Assembly: GCF_900142515.1 (NCBI RefSeq)
Contig: NZ_FRBC01000025.1
Location: 1-44,458, forward strand
DNA: 44,458 nucleotides
DNA from: Pseudoselenomonas ruminantium
Lineage (GTDB): Bacteria; Bacillota; Negativicutes; Selenomonadales; Selenomonadaceae
Direction: 5' to 3'
Within the stretch, counting starts at the first letter, position 1; each line of letters opens with the position of its first letter. Shown piece after piece: positions 1-43,601 of this stretch. Position numbers and translations under genes: made by a program. The notes beneath the pieces are model-generated. The model had not been told where the DNA came from, did no database searches, and saw only the letters and a program-made list of their open reading frames with translations.

Positions 1-123
1 CGCCATCACGACGCTAGAAGTTACGCCTTCAAGCATTCAGTGTTAAAATCCACCTCGTTCGACTTGCATGTGTTAAGCACGCCGCCAGCGTTCGTCCTGA
101 GCCAGGATCAAACTCTCCATAAA
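1..123 (-). rRNA. rrs: 16S ribosomal RNA, 5' end (partial)
   Basis: The reverse complement of 97-116 is the universal bacterial 8F/27F primer site at the start of 16S rRNA, followed by the conserved GACGAACGCTGGCGGC and then the first variable region. Counting from E. coli position 8 puts the mature 5' end near 123. The gene reads leftward out of the window, so the rest of the rRNA operon lies to the left. Small-subunit rRNA, component of the 30S ribosome. Confidence 0.98.
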
Positions 124-1019: not shown

Positions 1020-1096
<77 letters not shown>

Positions 1097-8301: not shown

Positions 8302-8313
8302 TTTATCTTTACT

Positions 8314-8413
8314 CTCATCTTCTAGGACTTTGCCTAAAGGAATTGGCACCGTTTCACGTTCATGATGGTTGCCGCAGCTTCATCGGGCCTATCCCTCCAC
8401 TGCTCTGGATGAG
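8314..8413 (-). promoter_or_regulatory. SAM-I (S-box) riboswitch aptamer
   Basis: Read on the minus strand it begins with CTCATCCAGAGCAGTGGAGG, continues with the S-box core GGCCCGATGAAGC and GGCAACC, then GGTGCCAATTCC, AGGCAAAG and the closing GATGAG of helix P1. This conserved order defines SAM-I. When SAM binds, P1 is stabilised and the terminator at 8276-8301 forms, turning metK off. Confidence 0.97.
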
Positions 8414-8441
8414 TTTCTATTCAGCTATGATTGATACTTCA

Positions 8442-35938: not shown

Positions 35939-37549
35939 TCAGTAAACCATCCGATGTACCTGAGCGGCAAAATCCGTTACGCTGACACCAAAGACATTGG
36001 CAAAAGCTTTTTTGCCATCGCCGCTGGCTCGAGCTGCCTGTGCCCAGATATACAAACTCTGCCAGCCATAACGCTGCACAAGTTCTGCTGTCCCATATTC
36101 GCTGAGCCGCGCCACTTCATTGCTATCATACTGCTTGTCCATATCACGCACAGCATCTGCTGTAAGCATCTTATCCAGCGCGGGCAATGGTGTCTGCCGG
36201 CGCAGCTCCTTGCGCCAGCTGCGCTGATAAGCCGACAGGTCCCCCTGTCCACTTTCAATGAGACAAGCAACGCCTGCCAGATAACTGCTGCCACGGAACA
36301 ACCATTCCACGCCGCTTTCTTCTCCCCCGAGCTCCTGGATAAGCAACAGACGAGCCACCAGGCTGCTACTGGCAAAAATCAGCTGCTGCGTATCATCAGC
36401 CTTGCTGATATTGAAAAAAATCGTACTGCCATTCTCTGCCCAGATACTGCCAGATGCCATCTGCCGAGCAGAATCCAGCCCCACCTGAGCATATTCCTGC
36501 ATCGCTGCGACAAAATCATCTTCACTGCCTACCAAAACGACCTGATAATCGCCATGCAAATCGCGCCCCCAATGCGTGCGCAGCCATTTCCGCCCCGCTG
36601 ACAGATGCGCAGCAAAATCCTGCCGCTGTCCTTCCGTCACGCCATTCCGCGCAATCAGCTTGATATCTGCCGGCCTGCTGCGTTCCTGCTGCCACCATGC
36701 CACAAACTCCTGCAAAAACGCCTGCATCTCTATGCCAAAGGTCTTGGCAAAAGCGTCCTCTGCACTATCCTTCTTCAAGGTCTGATAGTACGTTACGATC
36801 TTCTTGTCCGGCTGCCCTGCACCATAATGCTGCAATAAATAATAGGTCATCACATCCGACAGGCTATAAGAACGCATATCCGCATTCAAAAGCTGCAATC
36901 TTTCCTCTTCCGAAATATGCTGCAGACAGCTTATATCTGCCATCTGCTTAGCTGTAAAAAGCGAAAACCTAGCATCCAGATACCATTTCTCGACAGAACG
37001 CCCGCCAAGTTTTTCGCAAAGCTGCGCCCCTACATAATCCGCCGATCCCTCATCAAGCCAAAACAGGGCTTTCTTCTCTTCATGACTCCCATCACTCAGC
37101 TCATACTGAATTTGATGAAAGAGCTCATGCCCCGTCGTACTATATCGGTCACTTACCGTTTTCAATGAGTTTTTATCGCCATTGATCGCACAAAGCTGTT
37201 TGCCGGCTAAAGCCTGCCCGCTGGTATACTGCGCCTTTTGCCGGGCAGACTCAGCAGACTCGTGCATACGGCCTGTCATCAGTTCCTCATACTTTTTCCG
37301 GTCTGCACCGACCCAGACATCAACCGTGCGCTTCATTTTCAGCTGCATGGCCCCTTCAAGGAACTGGGGAAAATATGCACTGGCCTTTTGGACATCCTGC
37401 AGGATTTCCACATCCGTCTCTCCAAAACTGTGCACGTTCACTACAGCATCCCCCTGTTGCCCTGTCCACATATCACAGGAAAACTGCGCCCCCATAAGCA
37501 GTCCCAGCAGCACCATCGGCAACAGCACTATTATTCCTAACGTCTTCAT
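35939..37549 (-). CDS. Gluzincin (MA-like) metallopeptidase with decayed tandem copy
   Basis: 536 aa with an N-terminal signal/anchor (residues 4-20). Residues about 35-290 form a zinc peptidase domain: HELFH at 141-145 and WLDEGSADY at 164-172, with Glu167 as likely third ligand. Residues about 295-536 appear to be a second copy: the region aligned with HELFH reads VARLL (398-402), and that aligned with WLDEGSADY reads WLFRGSSYL (416-424), so the catalytic residues are gone; both copies end in a similar (D/K)AFA..FG segment. The ATG is 7 bases after the ABC permease stop, after TGAGG, so it is the last gene of that operon. The active domain would face outside the membrane. Substrate unknown. 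Confidence 0.8.
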   Translation of the reverse strand: MKTLGIIVLLPMVLLGLLMGAQFSCDMWTGQQGDAVVNVHSFGETDVEILQDVQKASAYFPQFLEGAMQLKMKRTVDVWVGADRKKYEELMTGRMHESAESARQKAQYTSGQALAGKQLCAINGDKNSLKTVSDRYSTTGHELFHQIQYELSDGSHEEKKALFWLDEGSADYVGAQLCEKLGGRSVEKWYLDARFSLFTAKQMADISCLQHISEEERLQLLNADMRSYSLSDVMTYYLLQHYGAGQPDKKIVTYYQTLKKDSAEDAFAKTFGIEMQAFLQEFVAWWQQERSRPADIKLIARNGVTEGQRQDFAAHLSAGRKWLRTHWGRDLHGDYQVVLVGSEDDFVAAMQEYAQVGLDSARQMASGSIWAENGSTIFFNISKADDTQQLIFASSSLVARLLLIQELGGEESGVEWLFRGSSYLAGVACLIESGQGDLSAYQRSWRKELRRQTPLPALDKMLTADAVRDMDKQYDSNEVARLSEYGTAELVQRYGWQSLYIWAQAARASGDGKKAFANVFGVSVTDFAAQVHRMVY

Positions 37550-37556
37550 GATAACC

Positions 37557-38309
37557 TCATTTCATCTGCCACCGGCAAACATGTCCTTCGATAAGATCCA
37601 AAACCCCAAAAAGCAATAACCCCATGAGGCTGAGAATCACAATTCCCGTATACATCTCCAGATAGTTTACCCGCAGCCAGGCATCCATGATAAAATACCC
37701 CATACCATACTGTGTACCAAAGGTCTCCGTAAAAAACAGCACGGACACCGCTGTGGCCATCGCCACCCGGATTGCCGTGATAAAGTTAGGCAAAGTCGCG
37801 GGCACAAGTATGTAACGGAATACTTGCCAGAATCCAGCCCCCAGCGAATACAAGGGATAATACGTTTCTGCTGGGATTGCACGAATGCCGTCCCGCAATG
37901 CCACGACGATCTGAAATACCACAATCAAGAAGATCATGATGATCTTCGACAATTCACCTACGCCCGCCAAGAGCATCAACACCGGCAACAAAGCAATCTT
38001 GGGAACCGGATATGTCAGATATACCAACGGTGCCAGATAACGATCTGCCCGCATAAAATATCCCATAATCAAGCCTAACGGATAGCCGATTGTCACAGCC
38101 AACAATATTCCTGCCACGATCCGCCACAGGCTGTAAGCTGCATGGATGGCTATTTTGTCAGCAAAAATCTCACTGAGCCGTCCAAATACCAGATCTGGTG
38201 CAGGGATAATCGGTAACTGTATCCAAAAAGCTGCTGCCTGCCATAACACGAGCAGGAAAACCAGTCCACATAGATAGGCTTGGAATACCACTTTACTCTT
38301 TTTCATCAT
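37557..38309 (-). CDS. ABC transporter permease, NitT/TauT (SsuC) type
   Basis: 250 aa with about six membrane segments and the permease EAA loop near residues 160-180 (LRDGIRAIPAETYYPLYSLGAG). The ATG at 38309 overlaps the ATPase stop by four bases (ATGA); the longer open frame to 38405 lies within the ATPase gene and is discarded. With the next two genes it forms an importer of the nitrate/sulfonate/taurine/thiamine-precursor class. Confidence 0.9.
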   Translation of the reverse strand: MMKKSKVVFQAYLCGLVFLLVLWQAAAFWIQLPIIPAPDLVFGRLSEIFADKIAIHAAYSLWRIVAGILLAVTIGYPLGLIMGYFMRADRYLAPLVYLTYPVPKIALLPVLMLLAGVGELSKIIMIFLIVVFQIVVALRDGIRAIPAETYYPLYSLGAGFWQVFRYILVPATLPNFITAIRVAMATAVSVLFFTETFGTQYGMGYFIMDAWLRVNYLEMYTGIVILSLMGLLLFGVLDLIEGHVCRWQMK

Positions 38310-39064
38310 ACTGGCCTTGCCCCCATGGCTTTGATTTTTTCCCGCAGCTCCTGTCCCTTGACAAAAAAATCCGGTAAATCCTCCCAGCTTCGGCTGCCCT
38401 GCCACCTGTTATCCATGACTTCCGCTACAGTGCCAGGACTGCTGGACATCAGCACGATCTGCTGTCCCAGGTACAATGCCTCTTCCACATAATGGGTCAC
38501 CAACATAGTGGTAATGCCCGCATCTTCCCATAAATCCCGGAACACATCCTGCATCTCTTCCCGCGTAATGGCATCCAGCGCGGAGAACGGTTCATCCATC
38601 AGCAAGATATCCGGTTCCAGCAGGAACACCCTGGCCAGGCTTACCCGTTGTTGCTGCCCACCACTCAGCTCCTGCGGATAGCGGTTGAGCAGATTCTCAA
38701 TCCCCAGCTTCTGGCAGAGGTCGTGCATTTGTTCCTTCTTGTCCGCAGACCAGCCACCTTTCAATCGGCAGGCCAAACGGATGTTTTCGCCTGCCGTCTG
38801 CCAAGGCAGGAGGCCATAATTTTGAGGCATAAAACCAATGCACAGTTTCTGCGGGTTTACCTTTTCGCCATTGATACGCACGGAGCCGGTGTAATTCCGG
38901 ATCAATCCCGCCACCACTTTCAACAGCGTAGATTTGCCACAGCCAGAAGGTCCGATAACAGCACAAACCGTTCCTTGCGGAACGGTCAGGCTGACATCTT
39001 GCAATGCCATATTCTCTTGTCGTGCGCTTTGATAAGCTACTGCCAAATTTTCTATTGCAATCAT
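38306..39064 (-). CDS. ABC transporter ATP-binding protein, SsuB type
   Basis: 252 aa. Walker A GPSGCGKSTLLK near residue 38, Q-loop in MPQNYGLLPW, ABC signature LSGGQQQRVSLARVF near 133, Walker B DILLMDEPFSALD, and switch His in LVTHYVEEAL. Closest in style to SsuB/TauB. One base separates its ATG from the TGA of the binding-protein gene. Confidence 0.94.
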   Translation of the reverse strand: MIAIENLAVAYQSARQENMALQDVSLTVPQGTVCAVIGPSGCGKSTLLKVVAGLIRNYTGSVRINGEKVNPQKLCIGFMPQNYGLLPWQTAGENIRLACRLKGGWSADKKEQMHDLCQKLGIENLLNRYPQELSGGQQQRVSLARVFLLEPDILLMDEPFSALDAITREEMQDVFRDLWEDAGITTMLVTHYVEEALYLGQQIVLMSSSPGTVAEVMDNRWQGSRSWEDLPDFFVKGQELREKIKAMGARPV

Positions 39065-39065
39065 A

Positions 39066-40004
39066 TCACTTATTCAGAACATCTACTACAAAATCAGCAT
39101 AAGTATAATTTTTCTTAATCAAGCCCTTGGCCTGCAGCCACTTCACACAGTCCACCACATCGCTTTCCTTGGGCAGGGCAGCATGATGATACTCAGGCAG
39201 TTTCATTGCCTCTTTGGCCGCTGGCGGGAATCCGCCTTTTTCTATGACTAAATCCATGTATTCTTCCCGCGGCGTGTTATTGAGATAATCCACCGCCTTG
39301 TTATAAGCCCGGTACATGGCCGCGAGTTCTGCCCGGCAATCATTGGTGGTCTTGGCCGTGAACATGATCACGCCGGGATTGATGCCCAATTCATCAGAAC
39401 CTGTTATGAACTGACAGCCATTGTGCACCGCGATGCTAGCCATGGGTTCCGGCAACGTTGCCGCTGCCAGTTTACCATTCTGCAGCATTTCCAACCTGGC
39501 AGGAATCTGCGGGATGATCACCTTATTGATGCTGTCCCCGCTCATGTTTTCTTTGGCAAGGATCTGATCTGTAACATATTCAATGATCGTGTTGCGGGAA
39601 ACCGCCACGTCCTGCCCCTTAAGGTCCGCCACAGATTTTGCAGCAGACTGGCTGCCTGCCACCAGTTTATAACTGCCATCTGTAAAAGAAGTCACCTTCA
39701 CGTTAAACCCGCCATCTTTGGCAAAAGCTACCGCCAGCATATCAGAAACAGCCCCATCCAGATTTCCGCTCTGCAAAGCTGAATCCCTGTCCATGGCACT
39801 CTTATACTGCTGGATATTAACCTCCAGCCCCTCTTCTTTAAAGTATCCTTTTTCCTGAGCAATGATAAAGGGCAGGGAATCCGTATCCGGCATCAGGCCA
39901 ATATTCAAAGGCTGTCGTGCTTTTTCTGCCGTCTTATCTGCACCGCACCCTGTGAGAGCACCTATAGACAATAGCACCACCAGTAAAACAAATAGCTTTT
40001 TCAA
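39066..40004 (-). CDS. ABC substrate-binding lipoprotein (NMT1/SsuA-like)
   Basis: 312 aa. Signal peptide with lipobox LTGC (Cys20). The mature protein has the NMT1/SsuA fold pattern: NIGLMPDTDSLPFIIAQEKGYFKEEGLEV at the N-terminus, then DLKGQDVAVSRNTIIEYV and a hinge region. It starts at TTG, 6 bases after AAGAAGGA. The ligand is not evident: nitrate, sulfonates, pyrimidine precursors and others are all handled by this family, and no metabolic gene accompanies it. Confidence 0.88.
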   Translation of the reverse strand: MKKLFVLLVVLLSIGALTGCGADKTAEKARQPLNIGLMPDTDSLPFIIAQEKGYFKEEGLEVNIQQYKSAMDRDSALQSGNLDGAVSDMLAVAFAKDGGFNVKVTSFTDGSYKLVAGSQSAAKSVADLKGQDVAVSRNTIIEYVTDQILAKENMSGDSINKVIIPQIPARLEMLQNGKLAAATLPEPMASIAVHNGCQFITGSDELGINPGVIMFTAKTTNDCRAELAAMYRAYNKAVDYLNNTPREEYMDLVIEKGGFPPAAKEAMKLPEYHHAALPKESDVVDCVKWLQAKGLIKKNYTYADFVVDVLNK

Positions 40005-40032
40005 CGCAAATCCTTCTTTCCATTTTTTGTGG

Positions 40033-40866
40033 TCATTTTGTGGTCAGCCAATCCGACAGGACATCTGCACCGATCTGAACATAATGTACGGCTTTATCGA
40101 TTACGTCCTTATTTTCCACATAGGCACTTTCAGCCTTAGCTTTTATCCGGCTGGCTTCTTGCTGCATCTCCGCAACAGTATCAAGCTTGGCATCCACATC
40201 ATCCAGCATGTTCTGTGCCTCAGCAATGGACTGTTTAAGCTTGGCCACATCGCTATCGGCCTGAGCAGAAACCTTCTCATTTTCCTGTATCTGCTCCTTG
40301 CGCTTAGCCTCTTTGCCCGTGACCCGGTCCATCAACTTACCAAAAGCAGAATCCGGCATATTTTCCTGAATGGCTTCATTGCGTCCCTTTGCCCGGCTGG
40401 ACTGAGCTTCCAGTTCCCGTTCCCGGCTTTGGAGTTCCTGTTTCTGCCGTTCCAGTTCCTGCCGCCGCGCTTTGAGATCAGCTTCCTGATCCGCCAGTTT
40501 CTGCTCCCGTTCCCGGAATTGCTGTTGTTCCATGGCATGCTGATTCTGTCTGGCTTCAGACTGATCCTGACTGTACCCGGCCAACAGGAAACCGCCCAAA
40601 AGCGCCACCGCGAAGCTGATTGCCAGGATCAGCCCCCGCTTCCTGCCCGGCGTAAAAATCGTTCCAGAGGAAACCTGCTCCTTGCGTGGCAATGCTGGTT
40701 CAGGAGGTAATTCGCGCACACCAGCGGGCTTTTCCGTCTTACTCATTTGCTGCGGAAATGCGGGCTGGATTGTTTCCGTATCTTCCGTAACCCGTGGCAA
40801 CGGCTGCGTATCAGACTCCTTTAGCTGTGGCATCAGCTGTGTTTTATCCAAATCATTTTGTTTCAT
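40033..40866 (-). CDS. One-pass membrane coiled-coil protein, unknown
   Basis: 277 aa, family not recognised. The N-terminal ~75 residues are polar, Pro-rich and probably disordered, with three related Thr/Gln/Pro motifs (TQLMP, TQPLP, TIQPAF). One membrane segment (about 79-98, GLILAISFAVALLGGFLLAG) is followed by a coiled coil of Glu, Gln and Arg (about 105-165) and a second helical stretch to the end. The ATG at 40866 is used (AGGA at 6 bases). It lies 7 bases behind the DUF3783 gene and 28 bases before the binding lipoprotein gene, so it belongs to the same operon. A scaffold role is possible but unproven. Confidence 0.7.
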   Translation of the reverse strand: MKQNDLDKTQLMPQLKESDTQPLPRVTEDTETIQPAFPQQMSKTEKPAGVRELPPEPALPRKEQVSSGTIFTPGRKRGLILAISFAVALLGGFLLAGYSQDQSEARQNQHAMEQQQFREREQKLADQEADLKARRQELERQKQELQSRERELEAQSSRAKGRNEAIQENMPDSAFGKLMDRVTGKEAKRKEQIQENEKVSAQADSDVAKLKQSIAEAQNMLDDVDAKLDTVAEMQQEASRIKAKAESAYVENKDVIDKAVHYVQIGADVLSDWLTTK

Positions 40867-40873
40867 TAATGTC

Positions 40874-41272
40874 CTACTCCACTTTCTCACGTTCTGTCAG
40901 AGCGCCATGCTCTCTTTGCATTGTCTCACATAAACGCCGAAGTGTCCATAGTGTATTGAAAGGTGTCACCACCGCCTTGAAACGGATATGAGGCACACCA
41001 GCATCCTTCAGAGCCATCAGTACCTCATCCAGCCGCTTGTTCCGGATATTCTGCAGGACCATTACCTCATGTGGAAAAACGAAATCATCCTCCCCCTTGG
41101 ACTTAGCTGGCTGAAAGCCTTTCGCTCCCAGCAAATAACCTACTTTTTCCCGCCAGGCATCTGCCGGCAGAACTTTTGTGATGATTCCCAGCTTATGCAG
41201 AGTCTTGCAGGCCACAGCCAATTTATCTTCATCTTGGAATCGATAGAACAATACCTGTTCCTGACGTTTCAT
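40874..41272 (-). CDS. DUF3783 protein
   Basis: 132 aa, soluble. The order of its motifs (VLFYRF at the start, LHKLGIITKVLPADAW, VGYLLGAKGF, EVMVLQNI, LDEVLMALKDAGVPHIRFKAVVTPFNTLWTL) matches what I recall of DUF3783, a family without known function. GGAGG precedes the ATG, 4 bases after the NYN gene stop. Confidence 0.75.
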   Translation of the reverse strand: MKRQEQVLFYRFQDEDKLAVACKTLHKLGIITKVLPADAWREKVGYLLGAKGFQPAKSKGEDDFVFPHEVMVLQNIRNKRLDEVLMALKDAGVPHIRFKAVVTPFNTLWTLRRLCETMQREHGALTEREKVE

Positions 41273-41276
41273 TGAC

Positions 41277-42071
41277 TCAATCCTCCACCCAACGGGCTAT
41301 CCCCCGCATCAACAAATAAGTTACTAATTCGTCCATCGACACACCTTCCGCAGCCTGCCGTTCCGTCAAAGCCTGCCGCAAAGTACGGGGCAGATTGACC
41401 ATCAGGATCCCCTCTTCCAGCGAGGCTTCCTTGACTTTTTTCACCGTTTTGGCGGCCTTAGTGGTTTTAGCTGTTTTAGCAGATTTTGGCGCGGTCACTT
41501 CCTTCATTGCCTTTTCTGCTGTTTCATCAGATACGGCCTTGACCGTTTTCTTGGCTCTTGGTTTTTTTTCCGTTACAGCCCTGGGCTCCGCAATCTCCTT
41601 GGCCACACTTTTCTTACGGGTTGTCTTTTTTTCCTCCGGAGGATAGACGAAGAATTCATCATAGGCATTGCGCAAAGCTTCACTAGCCTGCTTAGTCCCC
41701 ACACCAATGATATAAGATGGCGTGTCTGAATTAAGATATTCCGCAATCTTCACAAAATCTGAATCCGTAGTAATGATGAAAAAACGCCGCACCCCTTCGT
41801 CATAAAGCAGCTTGGCAGAATCATAGATAGCTGAATCCAGAGAATTCTTCCCCTGATAGGTCCGGCTGATTTGCCGGAAGGTAAAGCCTGGCCGCCGCAG
41901 CAATCTTTCCCAGCGCTTCTGTTCCGGCCGCGCTTCCCAGTCAGATACCACGATCGTGCGGCAAGGCTGATACCGCCGTGCCTTGCTCAGAGTGAAATTC
42001 AGCATTTCAAAGGGAGCATTTTCGATGTCATATAAAATTGCTACAACTTCATTATTAGAAACCAATGTCAT
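41277..42071 (-). CDS. NYN-domain protein with RHH-like tail
   Basis: 264 aa. Residues about 8-145 form an NYN/PIN-like nuclease domain: ILYDIENAP with first Asp, then DSAIYDSAKLLY, and ITTDSDFVKIAEYL with the acidic cluster, as in LabA/DUF88 proteins. A linker of about 70 residues is almost all Lys, Ala, Thr, Glu and Val. The last ~40 residues (MVNLPRTLRQALTERQAAEGVSMDELVTYLLMRGI) look like a ribbon-helix-helix DNA-binding unit. AAGGAAGG precedes the ATG, and a TATAAT lies at 42092-42097. First gene of the run down to the metallopeptidase. RNA or DNA processing is likely; the target is unknown. Confidence 0.82.
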   Translation of the reverse strand: MTLVSNNEVVAILYDIENAPFEMLNFTLSKARRYQPCRTIVVSDWEARPEQKRWERLLRRPGFTFRQISRTYQGKNSLDSAIYDSAKLLYDEGVRRFFIITTDSDFVKIAEYLNSDTPSYIIGVGTKQASEALRNAYDEFFVYPPEEKKTTRKKSVAKEIAEPRAVTEKKPRAKKTVKAVSDETAEKAMKEVTAPKSAKTAKTTKAAKTVKKVKEASLEEGILMVNLPRTLRQALTERQAAEGVSMDELVTYLLMRGIARWVED

Positions 42072-42140
42072 AAAATCCTTCCTTCAATGTCATTATACAT
42101 ATATTTTATTGTATTCGCTGCCAAAAGAAAAAATCCTACT

Positions 42141-42182
42141 AAAAAATTGCCTGACTAGTCAAGATATGACTGGTCAGGCAAT
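42141..42182 (-). terminator. Terminator of the ldc operon
   Basis: On the minus strand ATTGCCTGACCAGTC pairs with GACTAGTCAGGCAAT (one mismatch), followed by TTTTTT. It ends the ldc-Nif11-like transcript. Confidence 0.92.
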
Positions 42183-42185
42183 CTG

Positions 42186-42368
42186 TCAAGCTTCTTCCTG
42201 CATAGCCTTTATGCCCTGCTGAAATTCTTCCATACTCAGCGTAAAGTAAGAGAGCTCCTGCAGGATCTCATACACTTCCTGCTGGCTTTTTGCCGCATCC
42301 AGCCGCATCGCTAAAGATTCCTCGGTCAAGGCATGGAACAGCATATGCTTGATTTCTTCGATATCCAT
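42186..42368 (-). CDS. Nif11-like 60-aa protein coupled to ldc
   Basis: 60-aa helical protein. The pattern IEEIKHMLFHALTEESLA...LDAAKSQQEVYEILQELSYF-TLSMEEFQQGI resembles the Nif11 domain (leader-like or nitrogen-fixation-associated small proteins), but only by inspection. The ATG overlaps the ldc stop by one base (TAATG), with no separate ribosome-binding site needed; the terminator follows 4 bases after its stop. Translation coupling suggests a stoichiometric link to the decarboxylase. It has no cysteine-rich core, so it is not an obvious precursor peptide. Confidence 0.72.
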   Translation of the reverse strand: MDIEEIKHMLFHALTEESLAMRLDAAKSQQEVYEILQELSYFTLSMEEFQQGIKAMQEEA

Positions 42369-43549
42369 TATACAGCCGCCCTTTTCTTCACATCATCATC
42401 TTCCGTCAGACGGGCCGCATATTCCGGCTGGTCCTCAAAGATGATGGTCGGAGCCAGATAGAAACCGTTGAACCGCGTAGCGCTGACGCTGGTATAGGAA
42501 CCCATTTCCGTCACGAGCACCTTGTCCCCGATCTTGAGTTCCGGTGCCATGAAATCACGATAGAGCACGTCGATGCCATCACAGCTCGGGCCACCGAAAG
42601 TCGACGGCTTCCTGGCGCCCTTGCCAAAGCAATGGAGCGGATAAGTCCAATGGTCATACATGATGCCAGAGAAGCAGCCATAGATGCCTTCATCCAAAAT
42701 ATACCAGGGCTGCTCTCCACGGGTCTTCGTACCGATGACAGAAGTAACAAGATTCACGGCCGTACCGCACATATAACGGCCCGGTTCCGTCCAGACTTCC
42801 GTATCCGGGAACAGACGGTCAATCTGCTTGTTGATTGCTTCCATCATGGCCGCCAGATCCACATTGAGACCCTTGGCATCGGGAACGGGGAACCCACCGC
42901 CGATGTCGAGGTCTGTCAGATGCATGCCCATTTCCTCAGCCTCATCAAAGAGCCTGCGGGCCACCAGCAGGGCTTCCTCATAAGCTGCCGTAGACAGGGA
43001 CTGGCTGCCCACATGGAAGCAGATGCCCATCGCGTGCAAGCCGGCCTCCTGTGCAGCCTTGAGCAGATCCAATGCCTCTTCCACGGGTGCACCGAACTTC
43101 GTATTCAAATCTACCAAAGCCTTGTTGTTGCGGACAGCAATGCGCACCAGCACATCGGCCCCCGGCACAGCCTTGGCCATCTTGTCGATTTCCGACGGAT
43201 CATCAAAGGTAAAACGGCGTACATTGAAATCCCTGGCCGCTTTCAGCCCCCGGGCATCCTTTACCGGGTTGGCATATATCATCTGCGAACCATCTACGCC
43301 CAGCTCATGGAGCATCTCCATCTCACCAGCCGAAGCCACATCAAAGTGTGAGCCAAGGCCAGCCAGCAGAGATAAGATCTCCGGCGTAGGATTCGCCTTC
43401 ATCGCATAGAACACTCCCGCCCGCGGCAAATGACGGCGCATAAACTGGTAGTTTTCCTCAACCTTGTCCAGTGAAGCCACCAAAAAGGGCGTCGGGATAC
43501 GCTTGGCAAGCGTTTTTACTTCTTTTTCGCTAAGTCTGAAATTTTTCAT
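42368..43549 (-). CDS. ldc: Lysine/ornithine decarboxylase
   Basis: PLP-dependent fold type III enzyme (the alanine racemase-like eukaryotic-ODC class) making cadaverine or putrescine. 393 aa from the ATG at 43549, the length of the S. ruminantium enzyme, which the sequence resembles almost throughout as I recall it. The PLP lysine is in VFYAMKANP near residue 51, with the glycine loop in DLDIGGGFP and EPGRYM, and the C-terminal Cys of the dimer active site in GPSCDGIDV. In S. ruminantium cadaverine is attached to peptidoglycan and tethers the outer membrane, and the enzyme is degraded after binding an antizyme-like protein. GGAATGGG precedes the ATG. An upstream start at 43591 is less likely. 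Confidence 0.96.
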   Translation of the reverse strand: MKNFRLSEKEVKTLAKRIPTPFLVASLDKVEENYQFMRRHLPRAGVFYAMKANPTPEILSLLAGLGSHFDVASAGEMEMLHELGVDGSQMIYANPVKDARGLKAARDFNVRRFTFDDPSEIDKMAKAVPGADVLVRIAVRNNKALVDLNTKFGAPVEEALDLLKAAQEAGLHAMGICFHVGSQSLSTAAYEEALLVARRLFDEAEEMGMHLTDLDIGGGFPVPDAKGLNVDLAAMMEAINKQIDRLFPDTEVWTEPGRYMCGTAVNLVTSVIGTKTRGEQPWYILDEGIYGCFSGIMYDHWTYPLHCFGKGARKPSTFGGPSCDGIDVLYRDFMAPELKIGDKVLVTEMGSYTSVSATRFNGFYLAPTIIFEDQPEYAARLTEDDDVKKRAAV

Positions 43550-43577
43550 AACACAACCCATTCCGATAATAGATTTA

Positions 43578-43601
43578 AGATGAATTGACAACTGTTCATC
43601 T
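43578..43601 (-). other. Hairpin in the ldc leader
   Basis: AGATGAA and TTCATCT (7 bp) around a 10-nt loop in the 5' untranslated region between the promoter and the ATG at 43549. It could influence translation; no sequence match to a known riboswitch was seen. Confidence 0.5.

Follow-up and report, generated by a model that had tools for sequence, protein, structure and literature searches.

Do seven closely packed genes, in which a predicted nuclease and two little-known proteins precede a transport system, form a single undescribed system, or are they neighbours that have merely stayed together? The question is raised by a stretch of the Pseudoselenomonas ruminantium genome (contig NZ_FRBC01000025.1, 44,458 nt, analysed in full and hereafter called the window), in which positions 42071–35939 of the minus strand encode, in this order, an NYN-domain protein, a DUF3783 protein, a coiled-coil membrane protein, the binding protein, ATPase and permease of an ATP-binding cassette (ABC) importer, and a putative peptidase (Table 1). 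The original prediction, made from the letters alone, had described these genes as seven units separated by at most about 30 bases and by no terminator, and had proposed their combination as something undescribed. The description of the layout proved accurate. The open reading frames (ORFs) lie where they had been placed, the domains are present in the predicted order, the successive intergenic gaps are 4, 7, 28, 1, −4 and 7 bases, and the terminator-like sites found between 42071 and 35939 all fall within genes. No riboswitch or other RNA family reached the gathering score within the cluster. Five of the seven proteins pass curated Pfam cut-offs, namely those for NYN (PF01936; 55.5 bits versus a cut-off of 24.2), DUF3783 (PF12646; 56.2 versus 27), NMT1 (76.3 versus 20.5), ABC_tran (120.5 versus 25) and BPD_transp_1 (75.2 versus 26.4). 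The exceptions are the coiled-coil protein, for which a start at ATG 40866 is favoured and one at GTG 40890 is less likely, and the peptidase-like protein, which stays below the cut-offs of both DUF1570 (20.3 versus 22) and Peptidase_MA_2 (16.7 versus 32.4).

Table 1. Genes of the cluster and signals at its front, in window coordinates
Feature	Coordinates (strand)	Length	Description	Basis
NYN nuclease	41277..42071 (-)	264 aa	NYN domain aa 9-145; K/A-rich disordered linker ~148-220; ribbon-helix-helix-like tail ~221-263	
DUF3783 protein	40874..41272 (-)	132 aa	Two beta-alpha-beta units	Pfam and model
Coiled-coil protein	40033..40866 (-)	277 aa from ATG 40866	Single-pass; two TQx(L/M)P motifs in N-terminal tail; predicted transmembrane helix 78-96; long coiled coil	
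Binding protein	39066..40004 (-)		Lipoprotein, NMT1/SsuA-like	Lipobox LTGC read in sequence
ABC ATPase	38306..39064 (-)		Ssu/Tau/nitrate-like	Profile matches
ABC permease	37557..38309 (-)			Profile matches
Putative zinc peptidase	35939..37549 (-)		Membrane-anchored or secreted; HELFHQ; fast evolving	DUF1570 below cut-off
SigH (Spo0H)-type promoter	42113..42139 (-)		AGGA - 17 nt - GAAT	
Intrinsic terminator	42144..42184 (-)		Ends the upstream decarboxylase/Nif11-like unit and parts it from the cluster	Hairpin and U-run

The gene order exceeds chance, because it recurs across the genus (NYN–DUF3783) and in the majority of the family's genera (DUF3783–binding protein). Occurrence was scored in 107 genomes of one family, each at least 90% complete, counting strong matches for NYN, E ≤ 1e-10 for the coiled coil and E ≤ 1e-60 for the binding-protein orthologue. 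NYN is present in 55 of these genomes, DUF3783 in 76, the coiled coil in 66 and the binding-protein orthologue in 79. All 55 NYN genomes also carry DUF3783, and in 54 of them the two genes are colinear; where both partners are present, the same is true of DUF3783 and the coiled coil (55/56), the coiled coil and the binding protein (54/57), DUF3783 and the binding protein (60/65), and NYN and the binding protein (46/50). Within the genus, 21 of 22 genomes have NYN, the miss being a 68% complete assembly, and DUF3783 adjoins it in 20 of the 21, the contig ending in the remaining one. A scan of named genomes relying on two peptide patterns retrieved 41 NYN loci, titled Selenomonas, Mitsuokella, Selenomonadaceae or related uncultured bacteria, with one metagenome-assembled genome titled Megamonas. 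In 39 of these loci DUF3783 adjoins NYN; in L142 the contig ends, and in L157, which belongs to genome G022, DUF3783 lies 88 kb away.

The same survey shows that the parts are separable. Among the 107 genomes, DUF3783 occurs without NYN in 21, the coiled coil without DUF3783 in 10 and the binding protein without DUF3783 in 14, which argues against a single fixed system. NYN–DUF3783 is found without a binding-protein orthologue in genomes G023 and G024, and without an adjoining transporter in two S. bovis genomes (L102 and L164, which are one genome, and L175), where the coiled-coil gene is directly followed by that of the peptidase. DUF3783 and the coiled coil lack a binding-protein orthologue in all five g8 genomes and in G106, and loci such as L089, L098, L101 and L105 have DUF3783, coiled coil and transporter but no NYN. 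Independence of the first genes from the transporter, which the original prediction had named as a sign against itself, is therefore observed in part, in G023, G024 and the S. bovis loci. The NYN–DUF3783 pairing, which it had proposed to follow across genomes, was present in all 55 NYN genomes. As for the combination being undescribed, no paper with the term DUF3783 and none on an NYN domain in Selenomonadaceae was found in the open-licence literature, which agrees with that claim; the modular parts and the separable transporter do not. Two papers there were listed as naming both an NYN domain and a ribbon-helix-helix. Since the parts occur without each other and NYN often follows mnmA in relatives (see below), the cluster is a modular, vertically kept family-level neighbourhood, and the idea of a single new system is only partly supported.

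Such a pattern could arise if unrelated housekeeping genes, from mnmA to that of the peptidase, stayed neighbours in an order that is slow to break, co-transcribed without joint work; DUF3783 might be an exception, as a working partner of NYN or of the coiled coil. We take this to be a serious possibility, short of a probable one. The many break-up combinations listed above are in keeping with it, as is the finding that 8 of 10 g3 genomes retain coiled coil and binding protein although no DUF3783 was found in them. The two loci examined from genus g5 also have the binding protein without an ATPase and permease beside it (L090 and L111). What speaks against it is that none of the 55 NYN genomes lacks DUF3783, and that the remaining genes adjoin one another again where an inner gene has been lost. 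At L090 (6404-9584), the genes after that of the binding protein are an Orn/Lys/Arg-decarboxylase-like one, which stays below cut-offs, and those for spermidine synthase and agmatinase, which pass them; L111 has the same first gene after the binding protein.

The product of the first gene is a predicted NYN nuclease of the MARF1 type, intact-looking and strongly conserved. The predicted local distance difference test (pLDDT) of its model is about 70–91 over residues 11–150, 45–52 over the linker (151–220) and 75–88 in a two-helix tail. A search of the PDB by sequence with the NYN and DUF3783 proteins gave nothing meaningful. By structure, the closest entries to the NYN model are those of the MARF1 NYN domain, 5yaa (Z 14.1, root-mean-square deviation (rmsd) 3.6, 137 residues aligned) and 6fdl (Z 13.6, rmsd 3.1, 134 aligned), followed by the bacterial protein VPA0982 (2qip; Z 12.9, rmsd 3.5, 138 aligned, 19% identity); the next fold after the NYN-type structures is a glycosyltransferase (Z 10.5). 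According to PMC6294520, the NYN domain of human/mouse MARF1 is an endoribonuclease whose acidic pocket, D358, D426, D427 and D452, cuts RNA. In the cluster protein and its relatives D15, N18, D79, D103 and D105 are identical in 26 of 26 aligned sequences; the acidic residues appear equivalent to those of MARF1 by position, and a single Asp stands at the place of MARF1 426/427. MARF1 carries RRM and LOTUS domains (PMC6294520), whereas in the cluster protein, 17-18% identical to it, the K/A-rich linker is followed by the ribbon-helix-helix-like tail; VPA0982, titled a protein of unknown function, is a chain of 162 residues, too short for linker and tail. Conservation is highest in the cluster for the NYN domain, with a median identity of 90% over 17 loci of the genus and of 81% over 13 loci from other genera. 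The corresponding values are 41% and 34% for the linker and 65% and 61% for the tail in the same loci, 77% and 57% for DUF3783, 57% and 36% for the coiled coil, and 80% and 70% for the binding protein.

The original prediction had also assigned a putative ribbon-helix-helix tail to this protein. The tail does weakly resemble ribbon-helix-helix models, but that of the window stays under every ribbon-helix-helix cut-off and is not called by Pfam on the full-length protein. Its model has two confident helices (229-242 and 246-263), the strand not being formed in the monomer. At E ≤ 0.1, RHH_5 matches 17 and HicB 11 of 24 tails, with models of other kinds among the matches as well (HTH_WhiA in 6). 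When 10 tails were rescanned, two exceeded the HicB cut-off (22.0 and 22.3 versus 21) and five were without a match at E ≤ 0.01. Among the genomes searched, the fusion of NYN with such a tail was seen only in Selenomonadaceae: outside the family, each match listed from 299 phylum genomes (E ≤ 1e-6) covers just one of the two, NYN domain or tail, and this is equally true of those listed from 250 class genomes. NYN relatives in two other families of Negativicutes (L126:5277-5978 and L127:4816-5565) have no ribbon-helix-helix tail by profile. An OST-HTH/LOTUS tail was considered for them and is not claimed, as Pfam gave no convincing domain in their C-terminal part.

The resemblance of the tail to the HicB, RHH_5, FitA and CopG models, which are typical of DNA-binding antitoxins, raises the alternative that the protein serves chiefly to regulate its own operon by DNA binding, or as a toxin-antitoxin-like fusion, its HicB/CopG-like tail sitting on the operon promoter and its NYN domain serving as a regulatory nuclease. 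Profile searches also retrieve short proteins by way of this tail. Yet the near-constant presence of NYN in the genus does not suit such an element, and PADLOC gave no match for it; we therefore consider this alternative rather unlikely. The tail differs from HicB-type antitoxins in being fused to NYN, and no HicA toxin was found among the Pfam matches of the seven cluster proteins, the two upstream genes and EF-P.

The second protein is a clear member of PF12646, a family that matches 116 of 250 class genomes (114 above cut-off) and none of 14 control genomes. It was modelled as two beta-alpha-beta units (pLDDT 81, pTM 0.73). A tautomerase/MIF-type fold was considered and rejected (best Z 4.4 and Foldseek TM ≤0.42 among the 50 rows listed, not significant). 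A PII-like fold, the first to be considered, may still apply, although no PII protein is present among the 50 rows listed in either structure comparison. The latter result bears on a further alternative, according to which the ABC importer would be under the control of DUF3783, acting as a small ligand- or phospho-signal protein of the PII type, with NYN tuning the importer mRNA. Relatives of nitrate/bicarbonate transporters are PII-controlled, and the profile of the binding protein weakly matches nitrate/bicarbonate transporter chains; the duplicated beta-alpha-beta architecture and the frequent colinearity of DUF3783 with the binding protein fit as well. We regard this alternative as unlikely, since, in addition to the absence of PII from the rows listed, 11 of the 76 genomes with DUF3783 have no binding-protein orthologue, and in other families DUF3783 has other genes beside it. 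In L115–L117, for instance, it is followed by a conserved protein of 163-168 aa of the YajQ family (L115 above cut-off). Of 13 DUF3783 loci examined from other families (L113–L125), one has a detected coiled-coil neighbour: in G116 (L118) a weak relative, with a best blastp E of 1e-6 over 39 residues and 120 bits to a profile possibly including it, stands directly before DUF3783 in reversed order.

The N-side of the single predicted transmembrane helix of the coiled-coil protein is basic, and the long coil presumably lies outside the cytoplasm. The motif T[QRK]x[LMIV] was seen 27 times in the N-terminal tails of these proteins versus 5.6 in shuffles, occurring in 17 of 20 proteins, which are related sequences. 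Such motifs resemble what we take to be phosphothreonine sites. The binding protein, ATPase and permease belong to the superfamily of NMT1/SsuA/TauA-type importers, but fall far under the curated cut-offs for sulfonate and taurine transport (TIGR01728, 80.6 versus 163.5; NF008421, 194.5 versus 357; NF007545, 90 versus 342). For this reason no sulfur theme uniting mnmA with a sulfonate-type importer is claimed.

In relatives, the neighbourhood extends further upstream than it does in the window. A gene for MnmA (query 450.8 versus a cut-off of 284) precedes NYN or a DUF2939-like gene (19.9 versus 24.8, below cut-off) by 9–198 bases in 52 of 100 loci, some genomes contributing two, and mnmA lies upstream in 28 of the 41 named NYN loci. 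The older order is likely to have been mnmA – DUF2939-like – NYN – DUF3783 – coiled coil – binding protein – ATPase – permease, with the peptidase gene in many cases behind it. In the window's own genome mnmA sits on another contig (C29), so the front of the cluster has probably been rearranged. Its place is taken by a lysine/ornithine decarboxylase gene, of which no counterpart was found in the stretches around 100 other loci, a replacement that fits neighbours kept together without joint work. The decarboxylase gene (42368-43591, minus strand) matches a solved enzyme (PDB 5gjm, E 8e-265) and overlaps a Nif11-like ORF of 60 aa (42186-42368; below cut-off).

The hairpin of the terminator that ends this upstream unit has a stability of −24.7 kcal/mol (z −7.74; 0 of 200 shuffles equally stable) and is followed by a U-run. 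Between it and NYN lies the SigH-type site. The SigH consensus matches once across the window versus 0.25 matches expected, which is unremarkable alone; a site of this type is, however, present 66-104 bases 5' of NYN in 14 of 18 Selenomonas loci by the strict pattern and in two more by a loose one. None was found within 200 bases upstream of NYN in L146, L148 or the 23 other named loci. A SigH-family gene scores above cut-off in 20 of 22 genus genomes. In Sporomusa, another genus of Negativicutes, SigH-type motifs are reported at 322 start sites with the consensus AGGA - 17/18 nt - GAAT, which the window site matches (PMC12456013); with that many start sites, control by SigH would not be rare. 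A sigma-70-type TATAAT at about 42095, noticed by eye, was set aside, being unconserved in most of the relatives shown and absent from the promoter scan list. EF-P, downstream of the cluster, has its own promoter-like site. Elsewhere in the window there are a SAM (S-adenosylmethionine) riboswitch (8312-8415, minus strand; 85.8 bits), a tRNA-Pro gene (1020-1096, minus strand) and, at its edge, the 5' part of a 16S rRNA gene (1-123, minus strand).

A nuclease together with a membrane protein is the shape of some defence systems, and an anti-phage or mobile system was considered on account of this layout. Distant NYN matches were indeed found in 3 phage and in 97 of 72,556 plasmid records, in every case with an identity below 60% and an alignment short of 80% of the query. 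They are expected, given how widespread the NYN domain is. DUF3783 has no match in the 72,556 plasmids and a single similar stretch in 50,697 phage records (MT837114.1:6582-6944; 34% identity over 95% of the query); the record in question, of 7,677 bases from human faeces, may be a bacterial fragment. PADLOC, in a scan that covered the cluster proteins other than the ATPase and permease, gave nothing for NYN, DUF3783, binding protein and peptidase, and its matches to the coiled-coil protein (LmuB/JetC/PbeC) look like generic coiled-coil stretches. As NYN is, moreover, kept so regularly within the genus, we regard a defence or mobile origin as very improbable: the cluster looks like an ordinary, little-studied part of the chromosome.

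Our best guess, held tentatively and about as likely as conserved synteny, is that NYN and DUF3783 form a housekeeping RNase unit which, where the coiled-coil protein is present, is linked to or docked on it at the membrane. The cluster would then be a chromosomal operon of Selenomonadaceae with an RNA-turnover unit at its front and an envelope/uptake unit at its rear. NYN would be an endoribonuclease dependent on metal, forming dimers by way of its ribbon-helix-helix-like tail. DUF3783 would be its partner or adaptor and connect it with the coiled-coil membrane protein at the cytosolic tail of the latter, whereby RNA cleavage would be placed at the inner membrane. The importer genes would be co-transcribed, perhaps as regulatory context.

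Several observations weigh against this proposal. The window's tail alone scores 14.7 against the FitA-like cut-off of 27 and 13.0 against the RHH_5 cut-off of 26, and the best PDB match of the DUF3783 model reaches only Z 4.4. In G022, DUF3783 lies 88 kb from NYN, mnmA and the DUF2939-like gene, and in G099 and several genera NYN is missing with the rest kept. All 14 genomes of genus g5, as well as G023 and G024, have NYN–DUF3783 without a coiled-coil match at E ≤ 1e-10, so tethering would not be universal. NYN co-occurs with DUF3783 at a hypergeometric P of 2.4e-13, and its co-occurrence with the coiled coil is not significant (P 0.08), both values being uncorrected for phylogeny. No coiled-coil neighbour was detected at the other 12 DUF3783 loci from outside the family, and the G116 protein has no TQ motif. 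RNase activity, complex formation and membrane location are themselves predictions from sequence and models.

A bolder version of the RNase proposal, which we think quite unlikely, is a lineage-specific RNA-decay machine in which the tail of NYN serves in dimerisation or nucleic-acid binding, DUF3783 docks it on a phosphorylatable TQxLP tail of the membrane-spanning coiled-coil protein and SigH controls the whole. If true, the cutting of specific RNAs would be tied to growth phase, envelope state and nutrient uptake; tRNAs or mRNAs are possible targets, given the linkage to the tRNA-thiolation gene mnmA.

An NYN protein with a ribbon-helix-helix-like tail, paired with DUF3783, would add a variant to a known class of predicted RNases and open no new category, although the fusion is an unusual build for such an enzyme. 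No described function was found for DUF3783; its presence in all 55 NYN genomes, together with its pairing with the membrane coiled coil, gives a first concrete and testable lead. The conserved promoter-like sites suggest a SigH regulon in Selenomonas that could be mapped. To our knowledge, RNA turnover has been little studied in Selenomonas and Mitsuokella; because the NYN domain is more conserved than the adjoining transporter, the comparison suggests that this predicted nuclease has a core role in these bacteria.

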